A stretch of DNA of 64,000 nt, taken from positions 62,001 through 126,000 of the forward strand of contig NZ_VWPY01000003.1 in the NCBI RefSeq assembly GCF_011839805.1, in the 5' to 3' direction. The notes under the pieces were generated by a model. The model saw only the letters and a program-made list of their open reading frames with translations, was not told the DNA's origin and did not search any database. Of this stretch, positions 3,655 to 7,936 are shown piece after piece (the stretch's first letter is position 1; each line of letters starts with the position of its first letter). The DNA is from Kineococcus rubinsiae (GTDB lineage Bacteria > Actinomycetota > Actinomycetes > Actinomycetales > Kineococcaceae). A program made the translations under genes and the position numbers.

Positions 3655-3752
3655 GTACCGTGATTATCGCAAGAAAGCGGCTTGATGTCAAGCAGCGGTA
3701 CGAAGCGCCGCGGTGCTCGGCGGCTCTCCAGCTACTCGAAACCCTGGGCCAA

Positions 3753-3785
3753 TGGCTGTTTTTTCAGCCACATGGCTCGTATAGT
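3753..3785 (+). promoter_or_regulatory. Palindromic operator and -10 of a leaderless promoter
   Basis: TGGCTG-TTTTTT-CAGCCA (3753-3770) is a perfect 6-bp inverted repeat with a T6 centre. TATAGT (3780-3785) is a good -10, and the GTG start at 3792 lies 7 nt downstream, where transcription should begin. A leaderless mRNA is therefore likely. The palindrome covers the -35 position and is a plausible operator for the winged-helix domain encoded next. Confidence 0.45.
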
Positions 3786-3791
3786 GGCCGC

Positions 3792-4421
3792 GTGGACCTG
3801 ACGCTCCCGATCCGCAGTGTGGTGCCCTCGCTCGAGGGTCCGGTCCTCGTGGTGCTCGCAGGCGTCAGCGCCCCGGTGTCCGGCCGGGAAGTCACCCGCC
3901 TGGTCGGAAAGACCTCTCACGCCGGGGTGCAGCGCGTGTTGTCGCGCCTCGCCACGGAGGGCGTGGTCCACCGGGAGCGGCGCGGCAACGCGGTGTTCTA
4001 CCGCGCCAACCGCGAGCACCTCGCCTGGCCCGCCGTCGAGCTGCTCGCCGGTCTGCGGCGACAACTGCTGAGCCGGATCACCGATCAGGTGGGGACCTGG
4101 CTCGTTCCCGCGCTGACCGTGGCCGTCTTCGGTTCTCTCGCTCGCGGTGAAGGTGGCACCGACTCCGACGTCGACCTGCTCCTCGTTCACGGTGACGACC
4201 TCACCGACGATCTGACCAGGTCGTGGGAGCAGCAGGTGGACGCACTGGTGGCAGCGATCGAGGCGTGGACCGGCAACCGGGCTCAGCCCTACGACGTCTC
4301 GCTGGCCGAGGTGCGGGCTCACGTGGACGCGGGAGAGCCCCTCGTCCAGTCCTGGCGGCGGGAGGCCATCACCCTGGCCGGCCGTGAGGTCAGCGCACTG
4401 CTGCGGAGCGTTTCACGGTGA
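3792..4421 (+). CDS. Winged-helix plus minimal nucleotidyltransferase protein (probable antitoxin)
   Basis: 209 aa from GTG 3792; no Shine-Dalgarno, leaderless start. Residues 17-75 read as a winged helix (recognition region VQRVLSRLATEGVVHRER, wing GNAVFYRANREH). Residues 105-175 hold a minimal nucleotidyltransferase with GSLARGE (114-120), metal-binding D126-x-D128, and a likely third carboxylate near D168. In MNT-HEPN modules such as MntA-HepT the MNT protein AMPylates and silences the HEPN RNase; the winged helix suggests it also represses its own operon. It overlaps the next gene by GTGA. Domain calls are firm; the antitoxin role is inference. Confidence 0.8.
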   Translation: MDLTLPIRSVVPSLEGPVLVVLAGVSAPVSGREVTRLVGKTSHAGVQRVLSRLATEGVVHRERRGNAVFYRANREHLAWPAVELLAGLRRQLLSRITDQVGTWLVPALTVAVFGSLARGEGGTDSDVDLLLVHGDDLTDDLTRSWEQQVDALVAAIEAWTGNRAQPYDVSLAEVRAHVDAGEPLVQSWRREAITLAGREVSALLRSVSR

Positions 4422-4729
4422 GCCCCTCCGGTCGCACGAGCGACTGCTCCCCGTCCGAGGGTCGCGTCCGCCTCGAACAGGCGCGCGCCTTCCTGGAAGT
4501 CGCCGAGCTCGTCCTGGACGAGGCCGACGACGGGCTCGCGACCCCCCAGGCCGTCGAACTCCTGGCGACCGTGCTGCCGGACGGGCCGTCGATGGCGAAG
4601 GACCTCCGTCGCCTGCTGGAGATCAAGGACCAGGCGCACTACGCCGCGACGATGATCTCGGGTCCGCGCGCTGAGCAGGCGGCGCAGTGGGCTCGGCGCC
4701 TCTACGACCTGGCGGTCCGCGCCGGCTGA
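4418..4729 (+). CDS. Small HEPN-like protein, probable toxin partner
   Basis: 103 aa, predicted all-alpha: helix 18-37 (RLEQARAFLEVAELVLDEAD), a TPQAVELLATVL helix, then DLRRLLEIKDQAHYA and a C-terminal helix. Size, helix pattern and the basic-KDxxH segment resemble HEPN proteins encoded beside minimal nucleotidyltransferases. The canonical R-x(4-6)-H motif is not exact: the nearest Arg before His74 is R65, with K70 closer, so the catalytic site is either variant or degenerate. Translational coupling (GTGA overlap) to the nucleotidyltransferase supports a two-part module. A non-toxic HEPN accessory is the alternative. Confidence 0.6.
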   Translation: MSPSGRTSDCSPSEGRVRLEQARAFLEVAELVLDEADDGLATPQAVELLATVLPDGPSMAKDLRRLLEIKDQAHYAATMISGPRAEQAAQWARRLYDLAVRAG

Positions 4730-4751: not shown

Positions 4752-5276
4752 TCAGAAGACTCCGTACTTCTGCCGCGGGTCGATGAGGTCGTGGCCCGGT
4801 GCGACGGGGACGGCGGTGCCGTCGTCGAAGATCGCCTGGCGGCGCAGGCGCCCGGCGGTCTCGTCGTGCTGCTGCAGGAGTTCGATGACGTTGCCGTCGG
4901 GGTCGGCGATGTAGACCTGCTCGACGTAGTCGTCGCGGACGCGGTAGCCACCGACGCGGTCCTGCCCGGTGGCCCGCAGCCGCTCGATGTACGGCGCGAC
5001 CTCCGGGACCCAGAGGGCGAAGTGCGCGACGAGGCCGGTCTTCAGCTCGTCCGCGCCCCAGTTCGGCGGGTTGTCCCGCAGCCGGCCGGGGGTGGACTCC
5101 TGCACGACGTGGATCTCGCCGCCCCCGAGGGCGAAGTACGCACCTTTGAAGGTGAAGTCGGTGGGCCGGACGATCTCGGTGCAGCCGAGGACGCCGACGT
5201 AGAACTCGCGGGTGCGGTCGAGGTCCTCGACCACGATGCAGACGTGGTGCAGGAACGGTCCGGTCTGGGCGGTCAT
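4752..5276 (-). CDS. VOC-family (glyoxalase/dioxygenase-like) protein
   Basis: 174 aa from ATG 5276; a start at 5312 would add 12 unconserved residues. A single vicinal-oxygen-chelate unit: FLHHVCIVVEDLDRTREFYVGVLG opens the first beta-alpha-beta-beta-beta module, VAHFALWVPEV the second, and YIADPDGNVIELLQ closes it. Candidate metal ligands are His in LHHV, His in VAHFAL and Glu in VIELLQ. Lactoylglutathione lyases, fosfomycin/bleomycin resistance proteins and dioxygenases share this fold, so substrate cannot be named. It converges on the HEPN-like gene. Confidence 0.8.
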   Translation of the reverse strand: MTAQTGPFLHHVCIVVEDLDRTREFYVGVLGCTEIVRPTDFTFKGAYFALGGGEIHVVQESTPGRLRDNPPNWGADELKTGLVAHFALWVPEVAPYIERLRATGQDRVGGYRVRDDYVEQVYIADPDGNVIELLQQHDETAGRLRRQAIFDDGTAVPVAPGHDLIDPRQKYGVF

Positions 5277-5403
5277 CGATGATCCGATCTCGGGGGGTGG
5301 TGCGCCCATCATGGCCTGGGGGTCCGCAGCCGCTGCAGACGACCTGTCGGATCTGCGCCGACGGTGACGTCTGGGGTCGATGTCCGATCGCCCGTCACAC
5401 GGC

Positions 5404-6189
5404 TCAGCGGGCCAAGGCGACGTAGAAGATGGCCGGGTAGGTCGCGACGAAGGCCCAGAAGAAGGTGTTCAGCCGCATCAGGACCGCGGTCGACAGGTGG
5501 AAGACCAGGCCGCAGGCCAGGATGAGGTAGGTCAGCGGGCGAAGGCCGATCAGCGCCAGAGGGAAGGCCGCCTCCATAGCCATCACGGAGAAGCCCGCCA
5601 GCCGGGCCACCCGCGGATGACCGTTAAGGATCCGGTAGGCGCTTGCGTGCCCGTAGATGGTGGTGCCCAGCACACCCGGTAGGGCCTGCCCGCTGCGCCA
5701 GACCGGTGAAGCGACCTTCTTCAGCCCGGCCGTCGTGTACGCCAGGCAGGCTTGCAGGGCGATGAACCACAGGGCCGCGTCCGCCACCGTCGGCACTCGG
5801 GCGATCAGGAGGGCGCAGCCCACGACCAGGCACATCTGGTCGGCCCCGTCGTGGCCGTACGAGGAGCGCACCTGAGCGAGGGCGGCGCCCACGACGACGA
5901 AGCCCAAGGCAAGCACGCGCGGCACCGTCCCGCCCCAGGGCAGCACCAGCAGCAGGGCGGCGCCGAACCGCACAGCGAGGACCACCCGGTACCGGGACGA
6001 GGTCATCACGGCCTCGAGCACCCAGCCCCACGACCCCGTCTTCCACGGTCGGCTGAGCCGCCCGACCGGCCAGCCGGCGAGTCCGTGGTCGCTGAGGACC
6101 CCGGGACGGACGAGGTACTCCAGGCAGGACACGGCCACGGCCAGCGCGATCAGCCGCTCCGAGAGGGCGAGGTACTGGTGCTCGGTCAT
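5404..6189 (-). CDS. HTTM-domain multi-pass membrane protein (SdpB-like)
   Basis: 261 aa with five or six predicted membrane helices (about 10-28, 70-88, 90-108, 118-133, 137-153, 196-218, 222-252). HTTM family signs: polar GHDGADQ before a helix, Y-T-T-A-G-L-K-K followed by W-R-S-G-Q-A-L, and FHLSTAVLMRLNTFFWAFVATYPA with the conserved His. The HTTM superfamily contains vitamin K-dependent gamma-carboxylase and SdpB, which with SdpA matures the B. subtilis SdpC killing peptide. The start overlaps the preceding gene by ATGA (6186-6189). HTTM call good; exact activity unknown. Confidence 0.75.
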   Translation of the reverse strand: MTEHQYLALSERLIALAVAVSCLEYLVRPGVLSDHGLAGWPVGRLSRPWKTGSWGWVLEAVMTSSRYRVVLAVRFGAALLLVLPWGGTVPRVLALGFVVVGAALAQVRSSYGHDGADQMCLVVGCALLIARVPTVADAALWFIALQACLAYTTAGLKKVASPVWRSGQALPGVLGTTIYGHASAYRILNGHPRVARLAGFSVMAMEAAFPLALIGLRPLTYLILACGLVFHLSTAVLMRLNTFFWAFVATYPAIFYVALAR

Positions 6190-6692
6190 GCGAGCGGGTG
6201 GAAGGACGACAGGAAGACCGGCGCGATGTCGACCGCCCCGTGCCGCCGCCGTGAACTCATGAGGACGAACTGGGTCCGGGTCGCAGGATGCGTCCGGGGT
6301 GTGGCGGAGACGTGGTCGAGGAGGGTCAGGTAGGGGGTGGACAGGTAGATCGACGCGTTGTGGGGGCCCAGTTCGTCGATCCACACGGCCAGGTCCTTCA
6401 TGACGTCGAAGATCGCCTTGTTGTGCCGCCGGCCGGGGTTCCAGGCGAAGGCGAACGGGTTGGCGGGGAGGTAGGGGAGTTCACGCCAGGAGGTGAGCAG
6501 CTCGTCTGCACCCCGGTCCCTCACCAGGATGTGGTAGTCGAGCGTCCCCGGTGTCGGCGCGAAGAAGTTGTACGCCGGAATCAGGCCGAGGACGTCGAAG
6601 CGCCGCATCGCCCGCAGAGCGCGGTCCGAGACCTGCGCCAGGGCCGAGAGGACCAGCCACAGCGCCAGGAAGCCCACGGCGATCGCGGCCAC
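6186..6692 (-). CDS. One-TM partner protein of HTTM gene (SdpA-sized)
   Basis: 168 aa. One N-terminal hydrophobic helix (IAVGFLALWLVLSALAQV, residues 4-21), then a soluble domain with LIPAYNFFAPTPGTLDYHILVRD. An N-terminal anchor followed by P-x-x-x-F-F-x-x-x-P resembles the layout I remember for SdpA (about 158 aa), but identity cannot be claimed. It lies 21 nt after the preceding gene and overlaps the HTTM gene by 4 nt, so the three are one operon. Probably a membrane-anchored helper of the HTTM enzyme. No catalytic motif recognised. Confidence 0.65.
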   Translation of the reverse strand: MAAIAVGFLALWLVLSALAQVSDRALRAMRRFDVLGLIPAYNFFAPTPGTLDYHILVRDRGADELLTSWRELPYLPANPFAFAWNPGRRHNKAIFDVMKDLAVWIDELGPHNASIYLSTPYLTLLDHVSATPRTHPATRTQFVLMSSRRRHGAVDIAPVFLSSFHPLA

Positions 6693-6713
6693 GGTGCACG
6701 ACCTCCGCCCGCG

Positions 6714-7473
6714 TCAGCGCTGCAGCCGGATCGCGCGCTGTCGGATGCCCATCAGCTCGCGCGCCGACTTCTCCGGGCCGAGCTCGCGGAGAGTGGCTTC
6801 GTCCAGGTGATCGACGGGATTCTCCACCGGCATGATGGCCAACGCGATGAGGATGAGGATCGCGTAGGCCGTCATGCTCTCCGAGCAGCCCGCGTTGGGT
6901 GCGATGTTGAGTTCGACCTGGTCCGCGCCGATCTGCTCGACCGCTGCGGCCTCGGCGGCGGTGAGGACGGGGTCTGCCCGCAGGGCGACCGCCTCGAGCT
7001 CGTCGTCGCTGTCGTCGAGCAGGTGCTCGATCAGCGTGAACTCCTCGGCCGGCAACCGGCCCCCGTTGTAGGCGCAGGGGATGACGGCGAGGTCGCCCTG
7101 TTCCGGGAGGACGAGGTGGGCCGCCAACTGGCGCGCTCCGCAACGGATGGTGCCGTAGACCCCCCGCGCTCCCGAGGACCTCCCTGATCTCGGCGGGCTC
7201 CTTCGACCGCCGCCCCGCGTGCTGCTCCTGAAGGGACGCGGCCAGAGAACCGTCGTCGTGGTCACCGGCCGCGATGTCGCGCACCCGCTGCAGGCGCTCG
7301 TCCCCCCGGCGACCGACGTAGACGGTGATGCTGCCAGGTGCGGCCAGGCGTAGTCCGCGCTCGTCCGCGGGGCGGTAGTCGAGGACGTCGACGGACGACA
7401 CGCGCCGTCGACGGGCCTCCTCGTCTGCCGTCGAGAAGAACCTCAGCTCTTCGAGGTCCACGCTGTTCTCCAT
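6714..7473 (-). pseudogene. Frameshifted first gene of HTTM operon; possible precursor peptide or substrate
   Basis: ATG 7473 (GGTGAG upstream) opens a frame reading MENSVDLEELRFF to EIREVLGSAG, then loses sense at a C6 run (7160-7165 on the plus strand). Removing one base joins it to the frame that continues VYGTIRCGARQLAAHL to RQRAIRLQR and stops at 6714. The joined product is 252 aa. It is mostly acidic and soluble, with Cys111, Cys133 and Cys196, and a hydrophobic stretch just after Cys196 (TAYAILILIALAIM, 201-214). I do not recognise the family. A precursor whose hydrophobic part is processed by the two downstream proteins is an inference. The shift may be a sequencing error, slippage or true decay. 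Confidence 0.55.
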
Positions 7474-7936
7474 GGCGAAGCTCACCCAACTCCTGGTGTC
7501 GAGGACGTCAGCACTCTGCTGGGGTGCCGACGCGACTCGTCCCGCTGCTCGCCGCTGAGCGGGGCGGGCAGGGCGGGTTGACACCGATCAGCACGACGTG
7601 GCTCCGACGAGCAGTGGCTCACCGTGGCTCACGAGGGTGTCTCCTTCCGCAGGTTCGAGGAAGGACGACACCGGGACAGCGCTCCGTCGCGCTGGGACGA
7701 GGCGGTCAACCTCGCGTGTCTGGCCGCCCTCCGCGTCGTGCCTGAGGTGGTCCAGCTACCGCTCCGCGAACGTGGTTCGGGCCGGGGAAGCACAGAAGCG
7801 TGTGCCCCCGCGGTGGGATCCGCTCTGCTTCGAGCGAAGATCGTTCGGGAGGTGAGCGTACTCGGCGTCACCGGTGGCGTCCAAGGGTTGCCACGCTCGA
7901 GAGCACTTCTCTGCGTGCACCGAGCCACGCGTCGAT
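7474..7936. other. 463-bp stretch without a convincing gene
   Basis: Short ORFs exist on both strands, but none shows the third-position G/C bias of the neighbours, a ribosome-binding site and a recognisable domain together. GTGGCTC occurs three times (near 7599, 7614 and 7624), and TTGACA lies at 7578-7583 on the plus strand without a matching -10. It holds the presumed promoter of the HTTM operon at its left end and the end of the ABC exporter at its right end. Confidence 0.5.

Follow-up and report, generated by a model that had tools for sequence, protein, structure and literature searches.

A three-gene cassette of Kineococcus rubinsiae that pairs LinL-like and HTTM proteins and may modify its own long precursor

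Two described peptide systems employ a protein with a single transmembrane segment (TM) paired with a membrane protein of the HTTM type, namely LinL plus HTTM in the linaridins and SdpA plus SdpB in the making of a cannibalism toxin, and in both of them the chemistry carried out by the pair is an open question. In linaridin biosynthesis, LinL, HTTM and a hydrolase are the suspected threonine dehydration enzymes; in corynaridin these are CrdL, CrdG and CrdE, respectively, and LinL serves as a marker for finding linaridin clusters (PMC9927463). In the SdpABC and YitPOM systems, a substrate, a one-TM protein and an HTTM protein are encoded in one operon and the C-terminal part of the first protein is variable. 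YitM and SdpC have the N-terminal three quarters in common, but not the toxin part (PMC6818787). Here we describe a locus of Kineococcus rubinsiae, found in a stretch of 64,000 nucleotides that was analysed as a whole (the window), whose three genes, designated A, B and C, resemble the Sdp operons in encoding a candidate substrate with a variable C-terminal part, a one-TM protein and an HTTM protein in that order.

Gene layout and the relatives of genes B and C

The initial annotation of this DNA described a leftward operon of three genes with junctions of 21 and 4 nucleotides, and re-reading of the open reading frames at positions 5404-7473 bore out the frames, their strands, the protein sizes and both junctions, the first being a gap between A and B and the second an overlap between B and C. 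Around the cassette, we found no Rfam match, sigma-70-type promoter or terminator. The features of the locus are collected in Table 1.

Table 1. Coordinates of the A-B-C cassette and its features in the window
Feature	Position	Strand	Description
Gene A	7473..6714	-	103 codons plus 149 codons in the next frame, 252 aa
Gene A, 5' part (residues 1-103)	7165..7473	-	Conserved N-terminal domain, first portion, with motif APGSITVYVG
Gene A, 3' part (149 residues, next frame)	6714..7163	-	Remainder of that domain, with YNGG and LIEH, then the Cys region, the variable segment and the C-terminal tail
Frame break of gene A	7160..7165	-	C6/G6 run in this assembly
Gene A segment matching the hypervariable segment of homologues	6801..6875	-	MTAYAILILIALAIMPVENPVDHLD; candidate core peptide
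Gene B	6186..6692	-	168 aa, GTG start, LinL-like, one N-terminal TM
Gene B motif	6549..6578	-	PAYNFFAPTP; P39, F43, F44, P46
Gene C	5404..6189	-	HTTM membrane protein, 261 aa, several TMs
Gene C Lys158 codon	5716..5718	-	Invariant in HTTM alignments; falls, via SdpB, on GGCX Lys218
Cassette-bearing stretch missing from the closest congener (G014)	5332..7925		Candidate insertion

The product of gene B, which has no Pfam match, had been compared with SdpA in the initial annotation, and this part of it found no support. Neither Pfam nor NCBIfam identified B as SdpA, a search of the whole genome with the SdpA family PF17418 was negative while the B. subtilis control was positive, and an hhalign alignment of B with SdpA, spanning the TM and the P-x2-W-x-FF motif, was marginal (probability 3-30%). 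Its kinship lies with the LinL-type proteins of clusters encoding PxxxTP peptides, with which it aligns and groups; in the tree it falls on the linaridin (LinL) side and not with SdpA, and 19 LinL-type proteins all keep the proline and phenylalanine residues of its motif listed in Table 1. One supported group (96/95) unites the B proteins from four A-B-C loci with those of two non-linaridin pairs (L007 and L014). Since four Lys or Arg residues follow the TM of B and none precedes it, the positive-inside rule predicts that its soluble part is cytoplasmic.

B is also homologous to the one-TM family DUF5819 (PF19136; hhalign probability 94.8%, E 5e-8), and in every DUF5819 locus examined an HTTM gene adjoins (L048-L055 and L027-L029). 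No A was found at these loci, and their one-TM proteins form a separate clade in the B tree (99/98); the DUF5819-HTTM pair could be a relative of LinL-HTTM that has not been described and serves a different role. This brings three separate annotations, SdpA, LinL and DUF5819, under one recurring scheme in which an HTTM protein has a one-TM partner. Two further loci with such pairs deserve mention. At L007 (genome G226), a 75-aa ORF precedes the LinL-like gene on the minus strand, about 150 nt upstream of position 7259, and is a candidate short substrate; no A homologue was found in G226. At L014 (3732-6342), on a plasmid of the halophilic archaeon Haloplanus, LinL-like and HTTM genes lie directly after a sugar-transfer ATP-grasp gene, and a SagB/ThcOx-family dehydrogenase is encoded about 4 kb from the pair, making this a possible archaeal peptide cluster.

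Gene C is the sole HTTM match in its genome, with a score under the cut-off of Pfam HTTM (PF05090; 20.8 bits against 27.7, E 3e-4), and against the SdpB family of NCBIfam (TIGR04033) it gave 17.6 bits and E 0.0024, which does not reach the cut-off of 178 bits. Profile-profile comparison upheld the relationship to SdpB that had been proposed for it (E 7e-12, probability 97.5%), and in the tree C lies on the linaridin side in a clade separate from SdpB; judged by sequence, C is related to SdpB yet is not a member of that family. Lys158 of C aligns with the invariant Lys of SdpB, the Lys motif is kept in 40 of 40 HTTM proteins, and similarity together with this invariant residue places C in the HTTM superfamily. 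Moreover, an SdpB profile matched the human gamma-carboxylase GGCX (E 4e-5) with the invariant Lys of SdpB on Lys218 of GGCX, which we take to be the catalytic base. A direct sequence search of C against GGCX was not significant, and in a PDB fold search using the low-confidence AlphaFold model of C (two-sequence alignment, pLDDT 52) GGCX ranked fifth with a non-significant E of 2.3, a result that we did not count as evidence because the model was so poor. The two proteins also differ in that GGCX has 758 residues and a large C-terminal domain, which the 261-residue C lacks.

B and C are homologous to the LinL protein (CypL or CrdL) and the HTTM protein (CrdG, or the N-terminal part of CypH) of the linaridins, and the cassette has in common with linaridin clusters a one-TM protein carrying P-x2-[WN]-x-FF-x-P-x-P and an HTTM protein carrying the invariant Lys. 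Clusters of B and C relatives encode PxxxTP peptides, an alpha/beta hydrolase that is often fused to HTTM, a methyltransferase and an ABC transporter. The cassette, in contrast to linaridin clusters, is devoid of an alpha/beta hydrolase, a methyltransferase, a decarboxylase and a small PxxxTP precursor; its candidate substrate is a protein of 250 residues, and its gene order is A-LinL-HTTM, whereas that of the linaridins is HTTM(-hydrolase)-LinL. Precursors with PxxxTP were found in the linaridin-type clusters L015 and L017, and no small PxxxTP precursor with a Thr-rich core was found near the cassette in the window, L006, L013 or L034. Thus, although a LinL homologue and an HTTM protein are both there, the lack of the hydrolase and of the precursor led us not to adopt a linaridin assignment, and we file the cassette as a member of neither the linaridins nor SdpABC, since its enzymes are common with the first and its layout with the second. 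Because LinL is the marker by which linaridin clusters are found (PMC9927463), loci like A-B-C could be misfiled as linaridins. Moreover, with only the common pair and one candidate substrate left, the cassette would offer the simplest place to learn what an HTTM-plus-one-TM pair does. A different combination was seen at L012, on a Streptomyces atratus plasmid, where LinL, HTTM and hydrolase genes lie directly after genes for a lantibiotic dehydratase and a lanthionine synthetase C, in a possible hybrid lanthipeptide-linaridin cluster.

Gene A and its recurrence with genes B and C

Gene A had no significant match in Pfam, NCBIfam, PHROGs, PADLOC or the PDB and is a previously unnamed protein of about 250 residues; it has no signal peptide or hydrophobic N-terminus, and an AlphaFold model of its 3' part, made from a two-sequence alignment, reached a pLDDT of 40 and was too poor to be relied on. 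As revealed by an alignment of nine members, the protein consists of a conserved N-terminal domain with the motifs PPGS[VI]VVYV, Y[NT]GG, [IV]VEH and LT..E, a short region usually containing Cys, a hypervariable segment of about 25-32 residues and a conserved tail (...LL..RR). In three pairs of homologues, amino acid identity was 0.40, 0.41 and 0.31 in the variable segment against 0.81, 0.69 and 0.52 in the N-terminal domain, and dN/dS was 0.49-1.04 in the segment against 0.16-0.36 in the domain; for the first two pairs the divergence of the segment gave Fisher p values of 4e-5 and 0.004, with boundaries picked by eye. The composition of the segment varies from locus to locus, it is nearly identical between the window and L006, and the Rhodococcus copy of A lacks the Cys. 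A conserved domain, a hypervariable segment and a conserved tail together make the pattern expected of a substrate, and A is probably a lengthy precursor, one segment of which changes fast. The earlier proposal that A is a precursor or substrate therefore remains our best guess, now with the hypervariable segment behind it, while the three Cys and the hydrophobic stretch, which are indeed seen in the A of the window, are not conserved across the family. Since only three of the nine A proteins (window, L006 and L013) have the hydrophobic stretch, an SDP-like, pore-forming toxin is no general trait of the family.

The gene is intact in seven of the nine copies and frameshifted in the window and in L006 (4228-4985), a copy in a metagenome-assembled genome (MAG) that is 78% identical to the window's and is broken at another position; the two breaks are either two independent events or two assembly errors. 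Between the window and L006, dN/dS of gene A was 0.12 for residues 1-103, 0.20 in the middle and 0.04 in the last 70 residues, and gene B gave 0.14 and gene C 0.22. The low values on both sides of the break show that A is translated on both sides, and purifying selection throughout indicates that the break in the window is either recent or an assembly error. The frameshift of the window may be an assembly error, or else its gene A, being frameshifted, may be dead.

Co-occurrence of the three genes had been set beforehand as a test of the operon, and it held: A, B and C stood in the same order at all nine loci carrying A, the window included, so that we regard A-B-C as a unit. The nine loci come from Actinobacteria, one Rhodococcus plasmid (L013, from a plasmid search) and one Verrucomicrobiales MAG (L006, found by scanning genome contigs with a pattern of B); L034 came from a phylum sample. 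When 395 genomes of one family were searched with a profile of A only, six matches were obtained, five of them new, and B and C followed in each of the six. The Rhodococcus A is a distant homologue, for which pairwise BLASTP against the A of the window gave no match and a profile of three A proteins gave E 2.5e-5, the best of 2000 shuffles being 0.12. A fourth gene common to all A-B-C loci was not found. Weak A matches in three genomes (G799, G813 and G852), with no B or C nearby, were taken as chance.

A proposed modification of gene A and its alternatives

The synteny, the purifying selection, the LinL and HTTM membership, the conserved Lys, the hypervariable segment and the patchy spread are computed results, from which we infer what A, the residues changed, the chemistry, export and the biological role might be. 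We propose, giving it about an even chance, that A-B-C is a self-contained, horizontally spread, minimal linaridin-related cassette that modifies A. The A protein would be a cytoplasmic substrate made up of a conserved leader-like domain of about 180 residues, the usually Cys-containing region, a candidate core peptide and the conserved tail. B, a membrane-anchored protein whose soluble part faces the cytoplasm, would act together with C as an enzyme in the membrane, to which A binds and which alters the variable segment of A. Considering the region of gamma-carboxylase fold and the catalytic Lys in C, we suggest that C may perform quinol-dependent strong-base chemistry on C-H bonds, leading to dehydration, epimerisation or similar. 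Release and export of the modified piece would fall to a protease and a transporter encoded outside the cassette, and the released product might serve against competing bacteria or as a signal. The cassette may represent a small and so far undescribed route to modified peptides. With somewhat less confidence, we consider it a tentative candidate for a new ribosomal peptide class, in which a hydrolase-free pair of LinL-like and HTTM proteins would modify an internal, fast-evolving segment of about 30 residues within a 250-residue protein, driven by quinol-dependent base chemistry as in the vitamin K-dependent carboxylase.

In favour of modification we count, besides the constant A-B-C order, the purifying selection, the hypervariable segment, the placement of B and C on the linaridin side, the invariant Lys and the empty site in the closest congener, the genes of LuxR-type regulators upstream of the cassette at two loci (L082, 3115-4251, and L083, 6532-7680) and an ABC-transporter gene directly downstream of it at one (L080, 8011-9981). 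Several points count against it: A exceeds the usual size of a precursor, and none of the known leaders resembles its domain; a RiPP would not normally have a conserved tail behind its variable segment; the Rhodococcus A lacks the Cys, and the segment composition depends on the locus; most A-B-C loci have no accompanying protease or exporter; and the A of the window carries a frameshift. Moreover, the absence of the linaridin hydrolase means that the B-C pair may do something else.

One alternative, which we hold to be possible but unlikely, is that A is a soluble third subunit, for recognition or catalysis, of a B-C membrane enzyme whose target is a lipid, or else a peptide encoded elsewhere. 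The length of A, 250 residues, with a well-conserved N-terminal domain and tail, would suit a subunit, as would the constant company of the three genes and the existence of HTTM/one-TM pairs with other partners, such as DUF5819-HTTM or the pair behind the ATP-grasp gene of the Haloplanus plasmid. However, when one stretch of a constrained protein is hypervariable and has an elevated dN/dS, as in A, it typically belongs to a substrate or takes part in an arms race, and no small conserved peptide gene was found alongside the cassette.

Even less probable, in our estimate, is a true SdpABC-like killing system, in which A would be a pro-toxin from whose C-terminal hydrophobic segment B and C make a membrane-active peptide, causing neighbours to lose their membrane potential. 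The initial annotation had labelled the locus SdpABC-like, and the gene order and the HTTM protein justify that much of the label: precursor, one-TM protein and HTTM protein follow one another at all nine A loci as in the canonical sdpCAB-type loci of Actinobacteria (L021 and L037-L039), and C is related to SdpB. In addition, the A of the window has Cys, a hydrophobic stretch and a tail of about 40 residues as SdpC-like proteins do, and the A homologues vary like YitM and SdpC, with the N-terminal part common and the toxin part not (PMC6818787). The remainder of the label, however, was not supported. B does not match PF17418 SdpA and groups with LinL, A has no similarity to an SdpC-like protein, and the SdpC-like proteins of the Sdp loci carry a signal peptide, which A does not. 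The SdpI immunity protein (PF13630) had no match in the genome, and the hydrophobic toxin segment, confined to the three A proteins named above, is not conserved in the family. A strict SdpABC reading thus falls short on several of the marks examined.

Distribution of the cassette and its surroundings in the window

The cassette is absent from the 10 other species of the genus, and in the closest congener the stretch listed in Table 1 is missing between an ABC transporter gene and a glyoxalase gene, leaving a clean empty site. The G+C content of the cassette is 0.70 against 0.75 for the genome, and no terminal repeats were found at the cassette. The search for relatives in phages gave no HTTM protein, A was found in no viral contig, and among the plasmids searched A occurred in one only. 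By this patchy distribution, which includes a plasmid and a second phylum, A-B-C is a mobile, horizontally spread cassette. We consider it very improbable that it is a decaying import here, with A a pseudogene by frameshift and B and C functionless relics, because, for all that the frameshift, the absence from every other species with a clean empty site in the nearest and the lower G+C would fit such decay, dN/dS against L006 is low in A, B and C alike and to either side of the break, B and C are intact, a one-base homopolymer difference is a common assembly error and the system is intact elsewhere.

Two neighbours were tried as parts of the cassette and rejected, namely the ABC exporter genes that lie upstream of A, from 7937 on, and are present in all congeners examined, and the glyoxalase gene (4752-5312), which belongs to the host backbone. 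Further along, on the plus strand, an HTH-nucleotidyltransferase gene (3660-4421) overlaps a gene of 103 aa (4418-4729), the two forming an MNT/HEPN-like pair with weak PADLOC matches to PDC-M05A and PDC-M05B. This pair is missing at the corresponding place in the closest congener, which points to a second recent insertion or loss beside the cassette.
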